From a virus, in IMG/VR virus record IMGVR_UViG_3300032523_000456, positions 1-28,033 of that record: 28,033 bases of DNA; one strand, given 5' to 3'. The position numbers and the translations under genes are program-made. The notes beneath the pieces are model-generated. The model was not told where the DNA came from. It was given only the letters and a program-made list of their open reading frames with translations, and did no database searches. Of this stretch, positions 531-18,382 are shown in pieces (the first letter of the stretch is position 1; every line of letters starts with the position of its first letter).

Positions 531-608
531 TCAACGGTGCAGAGCCCAGAGCACGACGGACACAATGACCACCGCCCAGATGGCGCAGCCTATTGGCGCG
601 TCGCTCAT
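531..608 (-). CDS. 25-residue single-pass membrane peptide
   Basis: A short gene: ATG at 608-606, TGA at 533-531. Its peptide begins MSDAPIG and is then almost entirely hydrophobic (CAIWAVVIVSVVLWAL), ending LHR, so it is a single membrane helix. Its ATG overlaps the TGA of the upstream AP2-domain gene as ATGA, which implies translational coupling. It sits between that gene and the terminase-like gene. Tiny membrane proteins in late operons can be holin-like, but at 25 residues nothing more specific can be claimed. Function unknown. The ATGA overlap and clean hydrophobic block argue against a chance frame. Confidence 0.55.
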   Translation of the reverse strand: MSDAPIGCAIWAVVIVSVVLWALHR

Positions 609-1369
609 ACCAGATCAGCGCCTCCGCGCTGCTTGTCCAACATCAACTGCCAGCGGCGACGCGCCTCTGTCTCGCCCAGATCGTCTATCATGCTCGCACA
701 CAACCTGTCGGCCGGATCAAAGGGGCGGCACATCGGGTCCGCAGCCACCGCGTCGCCAATGTGCGCCACGATCTGGGCCTCGGCCCGCACCCTCGGTGTC
801 GCCGGACGCACCTCAGTCCCGGCGTCCGCATCCTTGCGCTGGCCTCGATGCGCGTCGCATGTGCGCGTGATGCCAGACAGTGTCCGAGCCCTAGCCAGCG
901 TGCGCGTGTGATAAGATACTCCGCACACTGCACACTCCGAAGTCCAACGCAGGAAGAGCCAGTTCCGCTTCGGACCCCCCTCACGTTTCTTGAAGTAATT
1001 CTTTCCCACCACCTCGAAGACCTGATCGTCAGGCGTGACGAACAACTCACCCACCGCAGGGTGACCATACTGATCCTTCGCGCAGTTCTCGTGGAAGTCC
1101 GCATAGCACTTGGGCATCGTCCACCTCTCAGGGTCAGACGGCACGCCACCAGATCGCCTCACAGGGTTGTCACGGCGCACCGACTGGTAAGCCGCCGACG
1201 CACCCTCCACTGTCCGAAACGACCCCAGCCACCTCCTCTCGCCCGCTACCATGACCACAGACGTGAAGCGGTCAATCCGCCTGTCATACGTCACGCCGCG
1301 ATGCTCGGCCGCCATGGCGCGCTTCTGTTCGAGGGTAAAATCTTGCAATAATGCTTCGTCCTTCGACAT
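605..1369 (-). CDS. AP2-domain protein with C-terminal zinc-binding motif
   Basis: 254 residues. Residues about 24-65 match the AP2/ERF-like fold: GVTYDRR, then RFTSVVMVAGERRWLGSF, then TVEGASAAYQSV, the usual three strands plus helix. Further on C146-X2-C149 and C171-X2-H174 could form a zinc site. In phages AP2 domains are common in homing endonucleases and DNA-binding proteins; no HNH motif is evident here, so a DNA-binding or regulatory role is more likely (inference). It is the first gene of the leftward operon, directly behind a possible promoter, and its stop overlaps the start of the 25-residue membrane peptide. Confidence 0.6.
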   Translation of the reverse strand: MSKDEALLQDFTLEQKRAMAAEHRGVTYDRRIDRFTSVVMVAGERRWLGSFRTVEGASAAYQSVRRDNPVRRSGGVPSDPERWTMPKCYADFHENCAKDQYGHPAVGELFVTPDDQVFEVVGKNYFKKREGGPKRNWLFLRWTSECAVCGVSYHTRTLARARTLSGITRTCDAHRGQRKDADAGTEVRPATPRVRAEAQIVAHIGDAVAADPMCRPFDPADRLCASMIDDLGETEARRRWQLMLDKQRGGADLV

Positions 1370-3693: not shown

Positions 3694-3852
3694 ATGAGCG
3701 CATCATCCGACTACTTCATCCAGCACCAGCAGGACATCTGCGACCGCTTCGTCGGCGGCGACCTCGATCGGCAGGAGGCCCATCAGGCGCTCGTGCGCAT
3801 GGGCTTCGACCCGCACGAGGCGAAAGATCTGCTGGACGAGGCCGTGGCGTGA
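3694..3852 (+). CDS. 52-residue hypothetical protein
   Basis: ATG 3694, TGA 3850-3852. The peptide MSASSDYFIQHQQDICDRF continues into LDRQEAHQALVRMGFDPHEAKDLLDEAVA. The second half has the helix-loop-helix look of a small three-helix (UBA-like) bundle, with MGFDPHEAKDLL resembling the MGF loop of such folds. No assigned function. Its TGA overlaps the next gene's GTG (GTGA). Confidence 0.55.
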   Translation: MSASSDYFIQHQQDICDRFVGGDLDRQEAHQALVRMGFDPHEAKDLLDEAVA

Positions 3853-4100
3853 CCGTCGGACCCCTCCCCACCATCCATCTGGGCGGCACATCCGCGCGGG
3901 CGCTCTTTGATCAGTACCTGACAGCCGCAGAGGCTGTCAGGGCTGCTCTTGAGGCCCTGCCGCAGGCCGCGCCGCACATGCGCGACTACATCGGCAGGGA
4001 CGACGACTTCCGCGCTGCGGAGGCCGCCCACGCCGTGAGGCGCGTGCTGCTCAAGCAGGTCAAGAGCGAGCTGTTCGCTCTCGCATCGCACGTGGCGTAA
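3849..4100 (+). CDS. hypothetical helical protein, GTG start
   Basis: 83 residues starting at GTG 3849, which overlaps the preceding TGA by GTGA. Not recognised. Mainly helical: SARALFDQYLTAAEAVRAAL and FRAAEAAHAVRRVLLKQV. The GTGA junction is used again at 5348 and 5897 in this phage, which supports the start. Co-translated with its upstream neighbour; no membrane segment or metal motif. Confidence 0.6.
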   Translation: MTVGPLPTIHLGGTSARALFDQYLTAAEAVRAALEALPQAAPHMRDYIGRDDDFRAAEAAHAVRRVLLKQVKSELFALASHVA

Positions 4101-4132
4101 CGAGAACCGGAAACGAAACGGAGTAAACTGAA

Positions 4133-4453
4133 ATGGCAAAGACGATGATGGAAATCCGCGCCCGGCTGTACGTGCTGGCGACGGATCTGAATTGCGCAGA
4201 GTTGAAGCAACTGGCGGACGCCACGAAGCGACGTTTCTTTGGTCGCGTTGCGCCGACACGTCAGGCGAAGATCACGCGTGACATGGTGGCGGAGGTGCGC
4301 GCGGCGTACAAACTGGATCCGAAGATCAGTCAGCGTGCGCTGGCGGCGCGCTTCAAGATAGATCAGGGCCGCGTCAACGAAATCCTGCACGGTTATCGAG
4401 ACGGCACGCCCTTCCGGCTGGACCGCGTCACACCCAAGAAAAGGACACGCTAA
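4133..4453 (+). CDS. helix-turn-helix protein
   Basis: 106 residues. Residues about 45-88 read KITRDMVAEVRAAYKLDP, then ISQRALAARFKIDQGRVNEIL, a helix-turn-helix of the resolvase/HTH_38 type common in phage regulators and homing-endonuclease-associated proteins. The ends are basic (RVTPKKRTR). Likely a DNA-binding regulator of early genes (inference). GGAG 9-10 bases before the ATG is the ribosome-binding site. It heads a cluster with the small zinc-ribbon-like and membrane proteins that follow. Confidence 0.6.
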   Translation: MAKTMMEIRARLYVLATDLNCAELKQLADATKRRFFGRVAPTRQAKITRDMVAEVRAAYKLDPKISQRALAARFKIDQGRVNEILHGYRDGTPFRLDRVTPKKRTR

Positions 4454-4456
4454 GCC

Positions 4457-4633
4457 ATGGCACTGATGCACAAACACACCTGCCCATATTGCAAGGGCGA
4501 AGGCTTCGTGAGCAAGGCCAAGGCTGGGAAGGTTCTGGTCGCTCGCGATCGCACAAAGTTCAACGCATCGATGGTGTCGGTCAACGCCGCATACCGCGCC
4601 CGTCAGAAGGCTAAGAAGGCACTTGAGAAGTAG
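4457..4633 (+). CDS. 58-residue protein with CPYC motif
   Basis: ATG 4457, TAG 4631-4633. MALMHKHTCPYCKGEGF contains CPYC with nearby His residues; the rest is Lys/Arg/Ala-rich and helical (AAYRARQKAKKALEK). Only one CXXC pair is present, so a full zinc ribbon would need a dimer or the His residues. A small nucleic-acid-binding protein is plausible. It starts 3 bases after the HTH gene stop. Not recognised. Confidence 0.55.
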   Translation: MALMHKHTCPYCKGEGFVSKAKAGKVLVARDRTKFNASMVSVNAAYRARQKAKKALEK

Positions 4634-4674
4634 AGACTGGAGAATTAACAATCCAACAGGCCGGGAGAACAACC

Positions 4675-4842
4675 ATGACAAAACGCAACTGGGGCATCAC
4701 TGGTAAATGTTACGAGCCGCCGCCCTTACCGAGCGGCCGCAGTCGCCGCGTGGAGCGTATCAACCACGTGCTGGCGTCGCTGTTGATCATCATCGTGGCG
4801 GTGGGGTCGTTGTTGATCCTGCTGGAAATTGTGAGGACATAA
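4675..4842 (+). CDS. 55-residue single-pass membrane protein
   Basis: ATG 4675, TAA 4840-4842. A basic cytoplasmic N-terminus (MTKRNWGITGKCYEPPPLPS then RSRRVERIN) precedes one clear transmembrane helix (VLASLLIIIVAVGSLLILL) and a short EIVRT tail. The positive-inside rule puts the N-terminus in the cytoplasm. GGGAG lies upstream of the ATG. It is followed after 2 bases by the gcrA-like gene. Could be a superinfection-exclusion or membrane-takeover peptide; nothing proves it. Confidence 0.58.
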   Translation: MTKRNWGITGKCYEPPPLPSGRSRRVERINHVLASLLIIIVAVGSLLILLEIVRT

Positions 4843-7442: not shown

Positions 7443-9497
7443 GTGTCAGTCGTGTCGGTCAAACCACAACACAAGCAGATCGTCGTCCCCTCCGCGCTTG
7501 CCGCGTCGCCGAATTGGGTGATATGGCGCTACGAGCACCACGACGGCGAGAGCAAGCCCCGCAAGGTGCCGTACTACACCGACGGCGGCCGCAGGCACGG
7601 CACGCAGGGCGCACCCGCTGATCGCGCTTCGCTCTCGACGTTTCCTGCCGCGCGCGACGCCGCCGCCCGACGCGGCTTCGACGGCGTTGGTCTCGCCATG
7701 CTCCCCGAACTGGGCATAACGGCGCTGGATTTTGACCAGTGCGTCGGCCCCGACGGCAGCCTGCCGGACGAGGTCAAGGCCATCGTCTGCCGCACCTACG
7801 CTGAGCACAGTCCGTCCGGCACCGGCATCCGCGCCTTCGTGCGCGGCGATCTGGGCAACAACAAGAGCCTCGCAGAGCCGGGCAGGTACGGCTTTGAGAC
7901 ATTTGCCACCAACGGCTTTGTCACGGTCACAGGCGACATGCTGCCCGTCACCGACCTGCTGGGATTGGAGGACACGATTGCCCCCGTAGACGACGCTCTG
8001 AGGGCTCTGGCGGACGCCCGCTTTGGCGCAGATCGCCAGAGCCAAGAGCCGACGGGCGACCCCTTCGACAGCTTCGAGCCGCGCCTCGGCCTGACGCAGG
8101 ATCAGATGCAGACCCTGCTCGATGCGATAGACCCCGACATCGGCCGGGCGGACTGGGTCCGGGTGGGCATGGGCCTGCACCACGAGTGTAGCGGCGACGA
8201 CACCGGCTTTGAGCTTTGGAACGAATGGTCCTCGGGCGGCGGCAAATACCCCTCTGAGGAGAGCCTCAGAGCCCAGTGGGACAGCTTTGACCGGCCCAAG
8301 CGCACTGGGCAGCGCCCCGTGACCATGGCCTCCACGATCCGGCTGGCAAAGCAGGCGGGCGTTGCGCTCAACCGCTCCGCCTCGCCGGACGCGATCAGGG
8401 AGGCCACGGCGCAGACGCCGGACGGCGATCCATTCAGCCACGTGGCGACGCCAGACGGCTACGGTGGGCGATTTCCGATAGTCGGCGCAGAGGCCATGAC
8501 GCGCAAGGAGCCGGGGGACTGGTTCATAAAAAACGTTTTGCCCAATGCCGACGTGGGCCTGATCTTCGGACCCACGTCCTCCGGCAAAACTTTTGCCATC
8601 CTCGATCTGGCTGCGGCCGTGGCGCGCGGCGAGCCGTGGCGCGGGCACCGCACGAAGCGCGGACGTGTACTGATCATCGCAGCCGAGGGCGGCAGCGGCG
8701 TGGGCAAGCGCATCAAGGCCTACTGCCAACACCACAACATCGAGCCGCGCGATCTGGACGTGGGCGTCATCACCGCCGCGCCGAACTTCATGCAGGAGGC
8801 GGACATCACGGACGTGGTGTCGTCCATCAAGGCCGCAGGCGGCGTCAAGCTGATCATCGTGGATACGTTTGCGCAGGTCACGGCTGGTGCGAATGAAAAT
8901 AGCGGCGAGGACATGGGCACGGCTCTGGCCAATGCCAAGGTGCTGCGCGAAGTCACGGGCGCAATGGTCATCCTCGTGCATCACACCGGCAAGGACGTGT
9001 CGCGCGGTGCGCGCGGCTGGAGCGGCATCAAGGCCGCACTGGACGTGGAGCTGGAGGTGATGCGCCACGACAGCGGAGAGCGCGAGCTGCGCATCAGCAA
9101 GATGAAAGACGGCGACGACGGCCTGTCGTGGGGTTTCCGGCTGGAGATCTTGACGGTCGGCGTGGACCGCGACGGCGACGGCGTCACGTCCTGCGTGGCC
9201 GTCGAGGCTGCCGCCCCAGTGCGGATGGCGCAGGACGACGCGACGCCACGCAAGGGCACCCGGCGCATGGGCAAGCTGCAGACGCACATTGTGGATATGG
9301 TGGACACGGTGGACCCGAAGATCATGTCCATGTCACTGACGGACTTCGTCACGCTCTGCGCGGGCGGCACGCCTCCACCGGACGACAGCAAGCGCGACGT
9401 GCGCAGGCAAGTGCTGGCGCGCGACATCCGCGCGATGGCGAAGTGGCCAGACGGAGCATTCACGCTAGATAATAACACCGTTATTTTTCTCAGATAG
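7443..9497 (+). CDS. primase-helicase (prim-pol-like, PriCT-2-like and RepA-type AAA ATPase)
   Basis: 684 residues from GTG 7443. N-terminal domain: WVIWRYE, KVPYYTDG, then LDFDQC (D96/D98, metal-binding D-x-D) and HSPSGTGIRAF (122-132), as in archaeo-eukaryotic primase-polymerase domains. A PriCT-2-like helical linker (about 217-285, WVRVGMGLHHE) follows. The C-terminal half is a RepA/AAA_25 ATPase with Walker A GPTSSGKT (about 376-383), Walker B LIIVDTFAQ (about 470-478) and sensor-like VILVHHTGKD. It would unwind and prime phage DNA for the family A polymerase at 13095. The ribosome-binding site is weak (AGAAAG). No separate DnaB-type helicase is visible. Confidence 0.85.
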   Translation: MSVVSVKPQHKQIVVPSALAASPNWVIWRYEHHDGESKPRKVPYYTDGGRRHGTQGAPADRASLSTFPAARDAAARRGFDGVGLAMLPELGITALDFDQCVGPDGSLPDEVKAIVCRTYAEHSPSGTGIRAFVRGDLGNNKSLAEPGRYGFETFATNGFVTVTGDMLPVTDLLGLEDTIAPVDDALRALADARFGADRQSQEPTGDPFDSFEPRLGLTQDQMQTLLDAIDPDIGRADWVRVGMGLHHECSGDDTGFELWNEWSSGGGKYPSEESLRAQWDSFDRPKRTGQRPVTMASTIRLAKQAGVALNRSASPDAIREATAQTPDGDPFSHVATPDGYGGRFPIVGAEAMTRKEPGDWFIKNVLPNADVGLIFGPTSSGKTFAILDLAAAVARGEPWRGHRTKRGRVLIIAAEGGSGVGKRIKAYCQHHNIEPRDLDVGVITAAPNFMQEADITDVVSSIKAAGGVKLIIVDTFAQVTAGANENSGEDMGTALANAKVLREVTGAMVILVHHTGKDVSRGARGWSGIKAALDVELEVMRHDSGERELRISKMKDGDDGLSWGFRLEILTVGVDRDGDGVTSCVAVEAAAPVRMAQDDATPRKGTRRMGKLQTHIVDMVDTVDPKIMSMSLTDFVTLCAGGTPPPDDSKRDVRRQVLARDIRAMAKWPDGAFTLDNNTVIFLR

Positions 9498-12240: not shown

Positions 12241-12312
12241 GGTGTCCTCCCTATCGTTGCTGGTAGCCGAGCGTCTGGCGCGTCTCTCCAGAGCAGAACC
12301 ACCGAGGACACC
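12241..12312 (+). promoter_or_regulatory. 9-bp complementary pair masking a ribosome-binding site
   Basis: GGTGTCCTC (12241-12249) is perfectly complementary to GAGGACACC (12304-12312), the ribosome-binding site of the Mom-like gene (ATG 12317). Folding would sequester it. The enclosed 54 bases may form further structure (CTCTCCAGAG). I see no matching tRNA fold in this interval. Confidence 0.4.
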
Positions 12313-12316
12313 TGAA

Positions 12317-13078
12317 ATGCGCGGCGATAGTTCATTGGTAGAGCATCCGGTTCCACCGGAAAAAGGCGGTTCAATTCCGACCTCGCCGCTCCATTTCAAA
12401 AAAGGCCACTATGGGGTTCACCCCTTGGATAGGAAAATTGCGCAGAGCATATCTGTTGCCAACCATTACCTGCACAGAAAAGCACCATGCTCATTCGCGT
12501 TCGGTCTGTTTACGGAAGGCGTGATAGCCGGGGTTGTTCTTTACGGAACGCCAAGCAATCGTAATTTACGGACAGGTCTTTGCGGCCCAGACGAGGCAAG
12601 CAACGTGATAGAACTTACCCGCCTTTGGGTGAAAGACGGCGTCCCCAAAAACGCAGCAGGGTTTTTAATCACGCACAGTGTCAAGCAGGTAGATAAGGAA
12701 ATCGTGGTAAGCTACGCCGACCCATCGGTCGGACATATCGGGACCGTCTATCAAGCTGCTGGCTGGATATACACAGGGGTGGGGGCCAAGCGCCCAGAAT
12801 ACACAATTCGCGGTCTTGAACATATGCACAAGCAAAGCATTTTTGACAGTCTTGGACGCGGAAAAAGAGAAAAGCACGGTTCTCAAGTCGCAGAGTTGCG
12901 TGAGAAATATGGCGACCGCCTAATCATAGGCGAGCAGATTAGAAAGCACAGGTATGTGCTTATTCGCGGCGTTCGTAGAAAAGAGCTAATACAAAAATTA
13001 CGGTATCCAGTACAGCCGTATCCCAAACGTCTCGAACAACACGACGACAGGTTTAAGCGCGGCCTTGATTTAGTGTAG
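12317..13078 (+). CDS. Mom-like DNA-modification acyltransferase 1
   Basis: 253 residues from ATG 12317 (RBS GAGGACACC). The first ~26 residues are encoded by a tRNA-like sequence (GDSSLVEHPVPPEKGGSIPT). The conserved part is GNAT-like: AFGLFTEGVIAGVVLYGTP, IELTRLWVKDGVPKNAAGFL, then VVSYADPSVGHIG and VYQAAGWIYTG. This matches the Mom family; phage Mu Mom turns adenine into N6-carbamoylmethyladenine and blocks restriction. Base composition is clearly more AT-rich than the neighbouring polymerase gene, suggesting later acquisition. If the tRNA region is not translated, an in-frame TTG at 12425 is an alternative start. Confidence 0.75.
   Translation: MRGDSSLVEHPVPPEKGGSIPTSPLHFKKGHYGVHPLDRKIAQSISVANHYLHRKAPCSFAFGLFTEGVIAGVVLYGTPSNRNLRTGLCGPDEASNVIELTRLWVKDGVPKNAAGFLITHSVKQVDKEIVVSYADPSVGHIGTVYQAAGWIYTGVGAKRPEYTIRGLEHMHKQSIFDSLGRGKREKHGSQVAELREKYGDRLIIGEQIRKHRYVLIRGVRRKELIQKLRYPVQPYPKRLEQHDDRFKRGLDLV
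12321..12393 (+). tRNA. tRNA-Gly(UCC)-like sequence, structurally irregular
   Basis: Acceptor stem GCGGCGA (12321-12327) pairs fully with TCGCCGC (12383-12389), followed by T and an encoded CCA (12391-12393). D-arm GTTC/GAGC with loop ATTGGTA is standard. The anticodon loop GTTCCAC gives UCC (Gly), with U73 as expected for tRNA-Gly, but the anticodon stem has only 4 pairs (TCCG/CGGA). The T-arm has the TTCAATT loop on GGCGG/CCG-A-CC, with one bulged A. It is thus either a degenerate or unusual tRNA. It lies wholly inside the reading frame of the Mom-like gene. Confidence 0.6.
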
Positions 13079-15051: not shown

Positions 15052-15375
15052 ATGACCCCCGAAGGCAAGATCGAGGCATATTTGAAAAAGCGCGTGCTGG
15101 CGGCTGGCGGGCGTATCCGCAAGCTGTCGTGGCCGGGGCATCGCGGCGCGCCGGATCGTATGATCTGGTATCCGCCTGCGCTGGATCACCTTAGTTTGCG
15201 TCCTGACATGGTTTTCGTGGAAGTCAAAGCCCCCGGCAAAAGGGCTACCAAACAGCAATCGCGCGAAATCTGTAAGCTGATCGCAGACGGCTTCCCCGTG
15301 TACGTTGTGAACTGCAAGGAAGACGTGGAGCGCCTGCTGCGCGACAGAAACTGGCTTCCGCGCGGGAAGAGATGA
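15052..15375 (+). CDS. VRR-NUC domain nuclease
   Basis: 107 residues, a stand-alone VRR-NUC domain of the PD-(D/E)XK superfamily. Catalytic set: RGAPDRM (D35), FVEVKAPGK (E57, K59) and KQQSRE (Q68-Q69). Stand-alone phage VRR-NUC proteins are structure-specific nucleases, active for example on Holliday junctions, and probably resolve replication or recombination intermediates. ATG 15052 starts one base after the polymerase stop, and its own stop overlaps the next gene (ATGA). Confidence 0.9.
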   Translation: MTPEGKIEAYLKKRVLAAGGRIRKLSWPGHRGAPDRMIWYPPALDHLSLRPDMVFVEVKAPGKRATKQQSREICKLIADGFPVYVVNCKEDVERLLRDRNWLPRGKR

Positions 15376-16058
15376 CCCGCACCTTCGCTCTGATCGAGAC
15401 CGACAAGAAAGCCGCCGCAGCTTGGTTCGCGCTGTACCACTACACCGGAACCTGCGGCGGCACGCGCTTCTTCTCTTGGAGCGACGGCGACCAGCGGCTG
15501 GCAATGGTAGCTATCGGCAAAGGTGGGAACCGCTACGGTGTCGGCGACAAGTTCGGCCTGCTGACTTGGAAAGGCGATCTGGAGATAACGCGCGTGGCCT
15601 GCAGCCCAGACGCCCCGAAAAACACCGCGTCCAAGGCGGTGAGCGAAGTGCTACGCACGTTAGCGGCCGAAGGCTATCAGTGGATCTTCACCTACGCCGA
15701 CAGCGCGCAGGGTCATCACGGCGGCATATATCAGGCGCTCAACGGCATCTACGTCGGCACCGACGCGAAGCAGTGGGTCAACTTTGAGATGGACGGAAAG
15801 CGCATCTCTAAGCGGGCTGTGAGCGGCCGTTTCGGTCACACGCGCTGGCCCGAAGTGGCCGAGATCGCCGCAAGCGCCGGGCATGTCTTGAAGCGCGTGC
15901 CGTGGAAGCCGAAGCTGACTTACATCATACCCATCGCCGCCGACCGCCGGGATCGGCGCGCGATCACCCGAACACTGGCGTCCGTTGCGTTGCCTTACGT
16001 CAAGCGCGGCGAGACCGTCGCCCCAACGAAATACCGCAACCACAGGCCCAAGGTATGA
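15372..16058 (+). CDS. Mom-like DNA-modification acyltransferase 2
   Basis: 228 residues; ATG 15372 overlaps the VRR-NUC stop. N-terminal ALYHYTGTCGGTRFFSWSDG and LAMVAIGKGG, then LEITRVACSPDAPKNTASKA and TYADSAQGHHGGIYQALNGIY parallel the Mom-like gene at 12317 motif by motif: E-L/I-T-R, A/P-K-N, Y-A-D-x-x-x-G-H-x-G-x-x-Y-Q-A. Predicted to acylate adenines in phage DNA or a related base; the cofactor and target are unknown. The protein is divergent from the first copy, so the two may have different targets or act in sequence. Composition resembles its neighbours. A generic GNAT function is the alternative. Confidence 0.7.
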   Translation: MTRTFALIETDKKAAAAWFALYHYTGTCGGTRFFSWSDGDQRLAMVAIGKGGNRYGVGDKFGLLTWKGDLEITRVACSPDAPKNTASKAVSEVLRTLAAEGYQWIFTYADSAQGHHGGIYQALNGIYVGTDAKQWVNFEMDGKRISKRAVSGRFGHTRWPEVAEIAASAGHVLKRVPWKPKLTYIIPIAADRRDRRAITRTLASVALPYVKRGETVAPTKYRNHRPKV

Positions 16059-18382
16059 CCCGCACCTTCGAGCCACACGACTACCAGCGCGACGCCATGC
16101 GCCACCTGCACGCCAACCCGCGTGCGGCGCTGTGGATGCCGATGGGAGGCGGCAAGACCGTCGCCACACTGACGGCCCTGAACGATCTGAACCTGACAGA
16201 GGATGTCTTCCCGGCGCTGGTGCTGGCACCACTGCGCGTGGCGCGCACGGTGTGGCCCGTGGAGGTGCAGAAGTGGGCGCACCTCAACCACCTGACCACC
16301 ACGATCGTCACGGGCAGCGTCAAGCAGCGCGAGGCGGCCATCGCCAAGCCAGCAGACATCGTCTGCCTGAACTACGACAATCTCGTCTGGCTCGTGGAAT
16401 ACTACGGAGCGGACTGGCCCTTCAGGACGGTGATCGCGGACGAGGCCACGCGCCTGAAATCGTTCCGCCTGCGTCAGGGCAGCAAGCGCGCGGGCGCGCT
16501 GGGGCGCGTGGCGCACACGCACGTCAATCGCTTCATCCAACTGACGGGCACGCCGTCACCCAACGGCCTGAAGGATCTCTGGGGGCAGTCGTGGTTTTTA
16601 GATCGCGGCGTGCGACTGGGGCACAGCTTCACCGCCTTCAGCGATCGCTGGTTCCGGCAGGGGCGCGACGGTTACAGTCTGGAGCCCATGCCCCACGCGC
16701 AAGCCGAGATCGAAGGCAAGCTGCGCGACCTGTGCCTGACGGTCACCGGCCTGCAGGTGGACGAGCCGATCATCAACGAGATACAAGTCGAACTGCCTCC
16801 CACCGCGCGCGATATGTACCGCAGCATGGAAAAGGATATGTTCGCCCAGATCGCGCGGGACGGCGTGGAGGCGGTCAATGCCGCAGGGCGCACGAACAAG
16901 TGCCTAGCCGCCGGGACGGAGATACTGACACCCTCGGGCTGGAAAGCCATAGAGACGTGGTCCGAGGGCGACAAGCTGTGGGACGGGGTTGAGTGGGTAA
17001 GTGCATACAAACTTGTTTGCAACGGTTATATGCCCGTGGTAGAGTGCTGGGGCGTGTGGATGACGGCCGACCACCGTGTGTTTACGGAAAGTGGCTGGCA
17101 GCAAGCACGTGAGGTTCTGCGTGGCAAATCCGCCCAAAGATATGACAGGAAAGAAGTTTGGCTACCTGACGATACTAGCGCGCGCGGGTTCAGTGAAAGC
17201 AAAAAACAACTCGTCGGCGCGAGCGACGTGGCTGGCGGCGTGCGTCTGCGGGCGCAAGATCGTCGCGCAGGGCGTGAACTTGCGCAACAGCAACCGAGGT
17301 GTGCTGAAGTCGTGCGGGTGCCGCAGAGGGGAGATGCTGGTCGAGGCGTGGGGAAGCCACGGCATGACGCACCACCCAGCGTGGACGACGTGGCGCAACA
17401 TGAAATCCCGTTGCGCAAATCCGAAAGACAAAGATTGGAAAAACTACGGGGCGCGTGGGATCGCGGTGTGTACGCGCTGGCAAAAAACTTTCGACAATTT
17501 CTGGGCGGACATGAGCGAGACATACCGTTCTGGCTTGACACTGGAGCGTGTAGACGTGGACAAAAACTACACGAAAGCGAACTGCCGCTGGGCGACACGT
17601 CGAGAACAAGGGAACAACACGCGGTTCAACGTAGTGATAAAAACCCCGAAAGGGCGCATGACGGTGGCGCAGGCGGCGCGCGCCTTTGGCCTGAAACCGA
17701 TAACGATATACGCGCGCATAGCGCGGGGCTGGGCGGAGAGCCGTCTGCTGATTGCGCCTATGCGCTAGTCTACGACATCGTCAATGCGGGGCCGCGTCAC
17801 AGATTTACGGTGCGTGGAAAAGACGGCACGCCGTTTCTGGCACATAATTGCCTCCAGTTGGCTAACGGGGCGATCTACTTGAGCGAGGAAGAGGAGCGCG
17901 GCCAGTGGCGCGAGGTTCACGACGCCAAGCTGGAGGCGTTGGAGAGCATCATCGAAGAGGCTAACGGCGCGCCCGTGCTGGTGGCGTATAACTTCAAGTC
18001 CGACCTGACGCGGCTGCAGAAAGCGTTCCCCAAGGCGCGCGTGCTGGACAGCAACCCGCAGACCATAGACGACTGGAACGCAGGCAAGATCGATCTGCTC
18101 TTTGCACATCCGGCGTCCGCTGGGCACGGCCTGAACCTAGCCGAGGGCGGCAACATCCTCGTCTTTTTCGGCGTGAACTGGAACCTAGAGGAGCATCAGC
18201 AGATCATCGAGCGCATCGGCCCGATGCGCCAGAAGCAGGCCGGTCTGGACAGGCCCGTGTTCGTGCACCTGATACTGGCGCGGGCGACGGTGGACTACAT
18301 GGTGCTGGACAGGTTGCGCGGCAAGCGCAGCGTGCAGGACATCCTGCTGGAGGCGATGAAGCGCCGCGCGCAGGGTGTTTGA
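16055..18382 (+). CDS. SNF2-type helicase interrupted by an in-frame intein
   Basis: 775-residue precursor; start ATG 16055 (ATGA overlap), not the longer frame from 15902. N-extein (282 residues): FEPHDYQRDAM (Q motif), Walker A GGGKT (31-35), DEAT box (129-132), TGTPSPN (164-170). C-extein (177 residues): helicase C with HPASAGHGLNLAEG and QIIERIGPMRQ. Excising 16901-17848 joins RTNK to CLQLANGAIY, the normal continuous motif, giving a 459-residue helicase, the usual length for phage SNF2 helicases of this replication module. The role is probably DNA remodelling during replication or recombination. Activity depends on splicing. Confidence 0.88.
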   Translation: MTRTFEPHDYQRDAMRHLHANPRAALWMPMGGGKTVATLTALNDLNLTEDVFPALVLAPLRVARTVWPVEVQKWAHLNHLTTTIVTGSVKQREAAIAKPADIVCLNYDNLVWLVEYYGADWPFRTVIADEATRLKSFRLRQGSKRAGALGRVAHTHVNRFIQLTGTPSPNGLKDLWGQSWFLDRGVRLGHSFTAFSDRWFRQGRDGYSLEPMPHAQAEIEGKLRDLCLTVTGLQVDEPIINEIQVELPPTARDMYRSMEKDMFAQIARDGVEAVNAAGRTNKCLAAGTEILTPSGWKAIETWSEGDKLWDGVEWVSAYKLVCNGYMPVVECWGVWMTADHRVFTESGWQQAREVLRGKSAQRYDRKEVWLPDDTSARGFSESKKQLVGASDVAGGVRLRAQDRRAGRELAQQQPRCAEVVRVPQRGDAGRGVGKPRHDAPPSVDDVAQHEIPLRKSERQRLEKLRGAWDRGVYALAKNFRQFLGGHERDIPFWLDTGACRRGQKLHESELPLGDTSRTREQHAVQRSDKNPERAHDGGAGGARLWPETDNDIRAHSAGLGGEPSADCAYALVYDIVNAGPRHRFTVRGKDGTPFLAHNCLQLANGAIYLSEEEERGQWREVHDAKLEALESIIEEANGAPVLVAYNFKSDLTRLQKAFPKARVLDSNPQTIDDWNAGKIDLLFAHPASAGHGLNLAEGGNILVFFGVNWNLEEHQQIIERIGPMRQKQAGLDRPVFVHLILARATVDYMVLDRLRGKRSVQDILLEAMKRRAQGV
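16901..17848 (+). mobile_element. intein in the SNF2 helicase, 316 residues
   Basis: Hint-domain signatures: block A CLAAGTEILTPSGWKAIE starting with Cys 1 (TGC 16901); block B MTADHRVF (T-x-x-H); block F YALVYDIVNAGPRHRFTV; block G PFLAHN followed by Cys +1 (TGC 17849). All splicing residues (C1, block-B T and H, penultimate H, terminal N, +1 C) are present, so it should splice. The middle, about 17121-17755 in this frame, has no recognisable domain and is Arg-rich; that stretch encodes a homing endonuclease in the other frame instead. The length is a multiple of three and the frame is fully open. Confidence 0.87.
17121..17768 (+). CDS. HNH-type homing endonuclease nested out of frame in the intein
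   Basis: 215 residues, one base ahead of the intein frame. Start GTG 17121 with GAGG 6 bases upstream; ATG 17142 is the alternative; TAG 17766-17768. DMTGKKFGYLTIL opens a zinc module (C41-x-C43, C65-x-C67), then WTTWRNMKSRCANP, NYGARGIAVCTRW, GLTLERVDVDKNYTKANCRW, ATRREQGNN, characteristic of a phage HNH-like homing endonuclease family, and a C-terminal HTH (TVAQAARAFGLKPITIYARI). It presumably cuts intein-less helicase alleles to spread the element. The intein frame over this interval shows no domain, so this is the frame under protein-level constraint. Confidence 0.8.
   Translation: MANPPKDMTGKKFGYLTILARAGSVKAKNNSSARATWLAACVCGRKIVAQGVNLRNSNRGVLKSCGCRRGEMLVEAWGSHGMTHHPAWTTWRNMKSRCANPKDKDWKNYGARGIAVCTRWQKTFDNFWADMSETYRSGLTLERVDVDKNYTKANCRWATRREQGNNTRFNVVIKTPKGRMTVAQAARAFGLKPITIYARIARGWAESRLLIAPMR

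Follow-up and report, generated by a model that had tools for sequence, protein, structure and literature searches.

Inteins are usually described as a splicing domain with an in-frame endonuclease. What, then, is a gene for an HNH-type endonuclease doing out of frame inside the intein of a phage helicase gene, where the intein frame also stays open? We studied this locus in a virus record that consists of a single contig of 28,033 bases, referred to here as the window. The first-pass annotation had assigned coordinates to the intein and to the endonuclease, and both pairs hold (Table 1). The helicase gene is a single ORF that is open through the whole intein; its product after intein removal is predicted to have 459 residues. 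An out-of-frame endonuclease inside the intact intein of a phage helicase gene is thus confirmed.

Table 1. Features of the helicase gene, its intein and the overprinted endonuclease gene in the window
Feature	Position	Strand	Evidence or remark
SNF2-type phage helicase precursor CDS, 775 aa	16055..18382	+	PF00176 (SNF2-rel) 4e-13, phrog_62 7e-144
Helicase N-extein	16055-16900	+	part of precursor CDS
Helicase C-extein	17849-18379	+	part of precursor CDS; stop 18380-18382
Intein, 316 aa, C1...HN then C	16901..17848	+	sits between ..GRTNK and CLQLANGA..
Intein block A (CLAAGTEILTPSGW)	16901..16942	+	conserved column set; AF2 pLDDT ~98
Intein block B (GVWMTADHRVFTESGW), with T-x-x-H	17051..17098	+	conserved columns
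Shine-Dalgarno GAGGT, 5 nt 5' of endonuclease GTG	17111..17115	+	start and SD conserved in relatives
Overprinted HNH-type endonuclease gene, 215 aa	17121..17768	+	phrog_374 1e-55, phrog_3377 7e-50; start GTG 17121, stop TAG 17766-17768
Intein-frame linker, intein residues 91-282	17171..17746	+	AF2 pLDDT mostly 37-64; predicted disordered
Intein block F (VYDIVNAGPRHRFTVRG)	17768..17818	+	conserved columns; AF2 pLDDT ~97
Intein block G (PFLAHN), C-terminal His-Asn, then Cys+1	17831..17848	+	sequence and conserved columns

The intein starts CLAAGTEILT, includes MTADH and ends VYDIVNAGPRHRFTV...FLAHN, and CLQLANG follows. It lies in the helicase frame and has a nucleophile at position 1, T-x-x-H in block B, a block F, a C-terminal His-Asn and Cys+1. 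AF2 modelled both halves of the Hint fold with pLDDT of ~97. A profile search matched PDB inteins, and the Foldseek matches of the Hint model were the Mtu RecA, gp41-1 and DnaB inteins; Pfam Hint_2 matched below its cut-off only. The earlier statement that this frame is open with all splicing residues is therefore borne out by block conservation and by the Hint fold, and the intein is predicted to splice.

The endonuclease gene lies one base ahead of the intein frame (+1). As first described, it has its own Shine-Dalgarno (SD) sequence, GTG and TAG, the last touching the first base of block F. AF2 gave the protein a mean pLDDT of 91.8. Is it an HNH enzyme? The first-pass annotation called it HNH-type, and one part of that label stood: in PHROGs its profile similarity is to HNH families only. 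Pfam and the PDB fold search did not confirm the label. The Pfam search returned weak helix-turn-helix matches and no HNH match, and neither the fold search against the PDB nor a profile search of PDB sequences gave anything significant. On our reading of the alignment, the conserved residue at the canonical HNH first-His position appears to be Arg, within a conserved R..N..W. We use the name HNH as a weak assignment taken from PHROGs. With profile searches of both frames now in hand, the endonuclease frame matches PHROG HNH families and the helicase flanks match phrog_62.

We then took a census of related loci. We scanned every fetched locus in six frames with profiles for Hint-N, Hint-C and the endonuclease, masking stop codons so that none could block detection. 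Among 141 Hint-N hits, 128 were followed by Hint-C in their own frame without a stop, and had the endonuclease in +1. The rest comprised five with the endonuclease in +2, two mini-inteins without an endonuclease, one locus (L276) whose endonuclease fragments are spread over all three frames, and another five without a same-frame Hint-C. None of the 141 carried an intact HNH in frame with its own intein, and no complete intein among them (Hint-N plus same-frame Hint-C) contained a stop. Redundancy removal at 75% DNA identity left 91 distinct intein clusters; the arrangement is not unique to the window and recurs in all of these. The same layout is present in the DNA polymerases of the cultured Caulobacter phages RW/GB2A and Shewanella phage SFCi1 and in those of the APSE phages of aphid symbionts. 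Our frequencies come from a sample of intein relatives that is the best 80 of 453 confirmed. That scan was confirmed using the window's own intein frame, which is a bias; endonuclease-led scans without this bias gave the same result. Viral contigs searched with the single intein-frame sequence yielded no matches, and alignments were required.

The elements occupy several sites, which we name by reading the flanking residues. Members of the +1 class occupy PolA motif C in 61 clusters, where the exact position varies slightly; in 23 clusters, the window among them, they lie at neighbouring positions within helicase motif IV, and in L067/L080 at helicase motif V. Those of the +2 class interrupt the PolA O-helix and come from jerseyvirus/dhillonvirus and IMG contigs. 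In a quick maximum-likelihood tree of the endonucleases, 84 rows of the +1 class formed one clade (SH-aLRT 88); the motif V members were placed elsewhere, and well-supported branches require two origins or more. A separate clade (100) held the +2 class. Because the tree separates the main +1, motif V and +2 classes, phages appear to have evolved overprinting at least three times. Hint and endonuclease distance matrices correlated (r 0.50; 0 of 2000 permutations as high), which indicates that in the main class the two parts move as a unit. The window had been read as a local invasion of a mini-intein in this helicase. That idea is not supported, given the co-divergence of Hint and endonuclease at several polymerase and helicase sites; most likely the window inherited an old composite element.

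Which of the two frames is selection reading? We took independent pairs of related inteins and scored differences per site separately for intein codon positions 1, 2 and 3. In that order, the rates were 0.168/0.114/0.385 in Hint-N and 0.125/0.073/0.295 in Hint-C, the pattern of a normal coding frame. In the overlap they were 0.372/0.154/0.125, and the fastest position was the endonuclease third position. The +2 pair gave 0.083/0.369/0.143, where the fastest position was again the endonuclease third. Since substitutions in the overlap concentrate at the third codon position of the endonuclease, selection acts on the endonuclease. On the codon-substitution check proposed with the first-pass annotation, the codon-position rates thus point to selection on the endonuclease frame, with no amino-acid constraint detectable on the linker.

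We conclude, with a probability of roughly 0.87, that this is a mobile intein in which a complete, separately translated homing endonuclease gene is overprinted in +1 on the linker between the Hint halves. It is the best explanation of what was computed, namely the dual open frames, the codon-position rates, the conservation of start and SD, the recurrence and the sporadic distribution. Splicing, expression of both products, cleavage and homing are the predicted part of the account. A ribosome starting at the helicase ATG would read the N-extein, Hint-N, a disordered spacer of ~190 residues, Hint-C and the C-extein; the Hint halves would fold together and splice out to leave the 459-residue helicase. 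Other ribosomes would initiate inside the intein just after block B, at the conserved start with its own SD, and make a free HNH-type endonuclease that could cut intein-less alleles and so drive homing. The bases of the overlap would be selected for endonuclease amino acids, and the intein frame only for open, in-phase reading.

Does the endonuclease still act in homing? Alternatively, the gene could be a relic or do something other than homing, with the intein simply inherited vertically. The HNH assignment is weak outside PHROGs, and degraded versions are known (L147 and L276). The endonuclease frame is nevertheless under strong purifying selection, and the distribution of the insert among close helicase relatives is sporadic: in 77 of the 80 nearest relatives (63-74% identity) the site is empty, one alignment spanning the insertion point unbroken, and of the others L003 and L030 have the insert while L045 ends before the site. 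L003 in addition carries two overprinted inteins in one phage contig, in PolA and in the helicase (760-1671; 3844-4761). We consider loss of the homing function unlikely. It is from the sporadic distribution, and not from observed transfer, that we infer cleavage of intein-less alleles and homing by the endonuclease.

How might the endonuclease be translated? In 94% of +1 members, an in-frame ATG, GTG or TTG with an SD match of at least 4 nt occurs in intein nt 180-235, and in most of them these starts cluster at nt 202, 187 or 220. A start with an SD occurs in the other two frames in 14-17% of members, and in 29% of sequences with the codons of this region shuffled. Shortly before the start, nearly all members have a stop in the +1 frame, mostly at nt 160 or 181, that derives from block B codons. 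We weighed the alternative that programmed +1 frameshifting, and not internal initiation, produces the endonuclease as a fusion to the N-extein and Hint-N. Such a fusion would suit the position of the endonuclease directly after Hint-N and in +1 in almost all members. It is argued against by the upstream +1 stop, by the clustering of SD-bearing starts at three positions and by a second class that has the same layout with +2; we regard it as very unlikely. Given the conserved start and SD together with the upstream stop, internal initiation is the best supported route by which the endonuclease would be made.

Could the linker itself be a functional protein domain, with the endonuclease frame secondary? 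Used as a tblastn query, the intein frame does match relatives across the whole linker, at 27-42% identity. However, the fastest overlap position, which is the endonuclease position 3, changes at about the silent rate of Hint (0.37 versus 0.30-0.39), so the linker is without detectable amino-acid constraint; AF2 placed intein residues 91-282 mostly below pLDDT 60, versus 91.8 for the endonuclease, and the +2 class encodes an unrelated linker. A functional linker domain is accordingly hard to credit. The substitutions fall mainly on the first codon position of the linker, the silent third position of the endonuclease, and a conserved linker protein, which had been named as a possible refutation, is not what we find. 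The gap totals in the listed intein pairs are multiples of three. Judged from these comparisons, all that selection maintains in the intein frame of the overlap is freedom from stops and an indel length divisible by three. The first-pass annotation had also held that the intein frame between blocks B and F encodes nothing recognisable. This is right in that the linker contains no Pfam or NCBIfam domain, and needs amending for the weak matches to relatives, which echo conservation of the endonuclease. Its proposal that the open second frame serves only as a linker fits a frame that is always open and whose amino acids are not conserved.

Is an open frame of this length remarkable? We shuffled endonuclease codons among synonymous positions, leaving the protein and its exact codon composition unchanged. 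This permutation is conservative because the observed codons have already passed through stop avoidance. For the window endonuclease, 4.69 intein-frame stops were expected and 0 observed, and the frame was open in 0.15% of trials (P = 0.0015), in agreement with an initial rough estimate near 0.1%. Over the 91 clusters, ~540 intein-frame stops were expected and again 0 were observed; the third frame, as a control, had 1031 stops against 995 expected. Free-standing homologues of the endonuclease from the same search were open in the equivalent frame in 0 of 119 clusters (1993 stops observed, 2155 expected), and in 0 of 39 with GC of 0.50-0.66. Although the window is a metagenomic virus fragment and long chance frames arise in GC-rich DNA, an artefact of sequencing or assembly, or a frame left open by chance, is next to impossible when 91 clusters lack a single stop beside a normal third-frame control, free-standing homologues are never open, and finished phage genomes share the layout. 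The overlap is neither chance nor error; the sequencing error once raised against it is excluded by the clusters and cultured phages that carry the same layout.

Several relatives depart from the common form. L147 (3001-3498) and L150 have a mini-intein at the window's helicase site in which the endonuclease core is deleted and both frames are kept. In three PolA loci (L136:317-4119, L148:312-4018 and L164:1-2927), Hint-N, the endonuclease and Hint-C lie in three different frames, in the order N-half with Hint-N, HNH ORF, and Hint-C with C-half, and Hint-C has its own start, MLVPVYD(I). As read from their sequence, these are fractured, split-intein arrangements; the C-terminal polymerase half of L136 contains a second, contiguous overprinted intein. 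The dhillonvirus/jerseyvirus 'Intein-containing DNA polymerase precursor' (L087:3001-3897, L088:3001-3897) contains an un-annotated HNH-type endonuclease in +2. We had at first suspected an in-frame HNH in the jerseyvirus polymerase inteins and rejected this, as the HNH sits in +2. With the window intein as tblastn query, 142 Salmonella phage records matched. In an Arsenophonus endosymbiont, L276:2278-3195 is a polymerase intein of the APSE type that contains indels and is closely followed by a stop in the extein. We considered it as a decaying endonuclease in a maintained intein and set this aside; because the polymerase frame itself stops right after the intein, the locus is unclean evidence, and it is apparently a decaying prophage gene.

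Might splicing domains have gained homing endonucleases repeatedly through overprinting? On this view, a free endonuclease gene would insert between blocks B and F in a frame that leaves the host frame open, and no fold-compatible fusion would be necessary. The endonuclease would then be coupled to the host gene, as frameshifts or stops that kill it would also kill the extein, and its separate translation could ease the step to a naturally split intein of the kind in L136, L148 and L164. Taken jointly, with its insertion, coupling and split-intein steps, we hold this reading tentatively, at somewhat less than even odds.

Elsewhere in the window, two Mom-like DNA modification proteins (phrog_1384; 12242-13078 and 15372-16058) flank the polymerase gene region. 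A tRNA-Gly (tcc) at 12321-12393 falls within the first of these ORFs, towards its 5' end, when GTG 12242 is taken as the start; the true start of that ORF is therefore probably later. An ORF at 605-1369 (-) shows weak similarity to the final portion of profiles for phage HNH endonucleases (phrog_953, 6e-6); the similarity is probably to the DNA-binding (AP2-like) part, as the nuclease part of these profiles was unmatched. A 613-aa open frame at 7446-9287 (-), antisense to the primase/helicase gene, is probably a by-product of GC-rich codon usage and illustrates that long open frames alone mean little in this DNA.

In the overprinted inteins, two selfish functions share the same bases in different frames. 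Such inteins, in 91 clusters from phages of many hosts and with at least three origins, are usually missed by annotation because only the long ORF is called. As overlapping genes they are an unusually clean case: amino-acid selection acts on one frame and selection against stops alone on the other, and the mini-inteins, the two registers and the split forms serve as natural controls. They also suggest, in a form that can be tested, how mini-inteins come by their endonucleases and how split inteins might originate. New splicing domains could be drawn from them, with linkers that are disordered and perhaps replaceable.

How does the window compare with known systems? Our literature search found no description of an intein that has a complete splicing domain and an overprinted endonuclease; recent preprints were incompletely covered, and priority is uncertain. 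The main text of a published viral-intein library makes no mention of such inteins shown to splice. For the APSE-1 DNA polymerase P45, GenBank annotates a P46/HNH endonuclease ORF inside the gene, in the same +1 architecture as the window. The pair is annotated merely as two overlapping ORFs, P46 is shorter than the conserved endonuclease match, and the search found no paper that interprets the overlap.

The closest published precedent, and the only direct one found, is the ShiLan domain or Pacc40 insertion in mycobacteriophage DNA methylases, with an out-of-frame HNH (Arsenault, Gosselin, Gogarten 2025, PMC11855218). That insert has no splicing motifs, its authors expect it to be retained in the protein, and they found no ribosome-binding site (PMC11855218). 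Both systems have an in-frame insertion, a stop-free host frame, an HNH-type endonuclease hidden out of frame and a mobile distribution. The window differs in the complete Hint domain that flanks the overlap, which sets it apart from a ShiLan-type insertion, in the SD at the start, and in its recurrence in polymerases and helicases at several sites.

Canonical inteins, with an in-frame LAGLIDADG or HNH, share with the window the Hint domain, an endonuclease between blocks B and F and the homing logic, whereas the window endonuclease lies in another frame and does not belong to the polypeptide that would be spliced out. Fractured genes, reportedly described by Dassa et al. in 2009, are said to contain an intein split in two, with a free-standing endonuclease lying between its parts. 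Separate translation of an endonuclease between intein halves is common to both, and the phage polymerases L136, L148 and L164 show the same; in contrast, the window intein is contiguous, its extein halves are in a single ORF that makes one precursor protein, and the frames overlap. Group I introns with an internal endonuclease ORF likewise have an endonuclease translated independently of the host gene, but the window element would be removed at the protein level, and its second frame must stay open.
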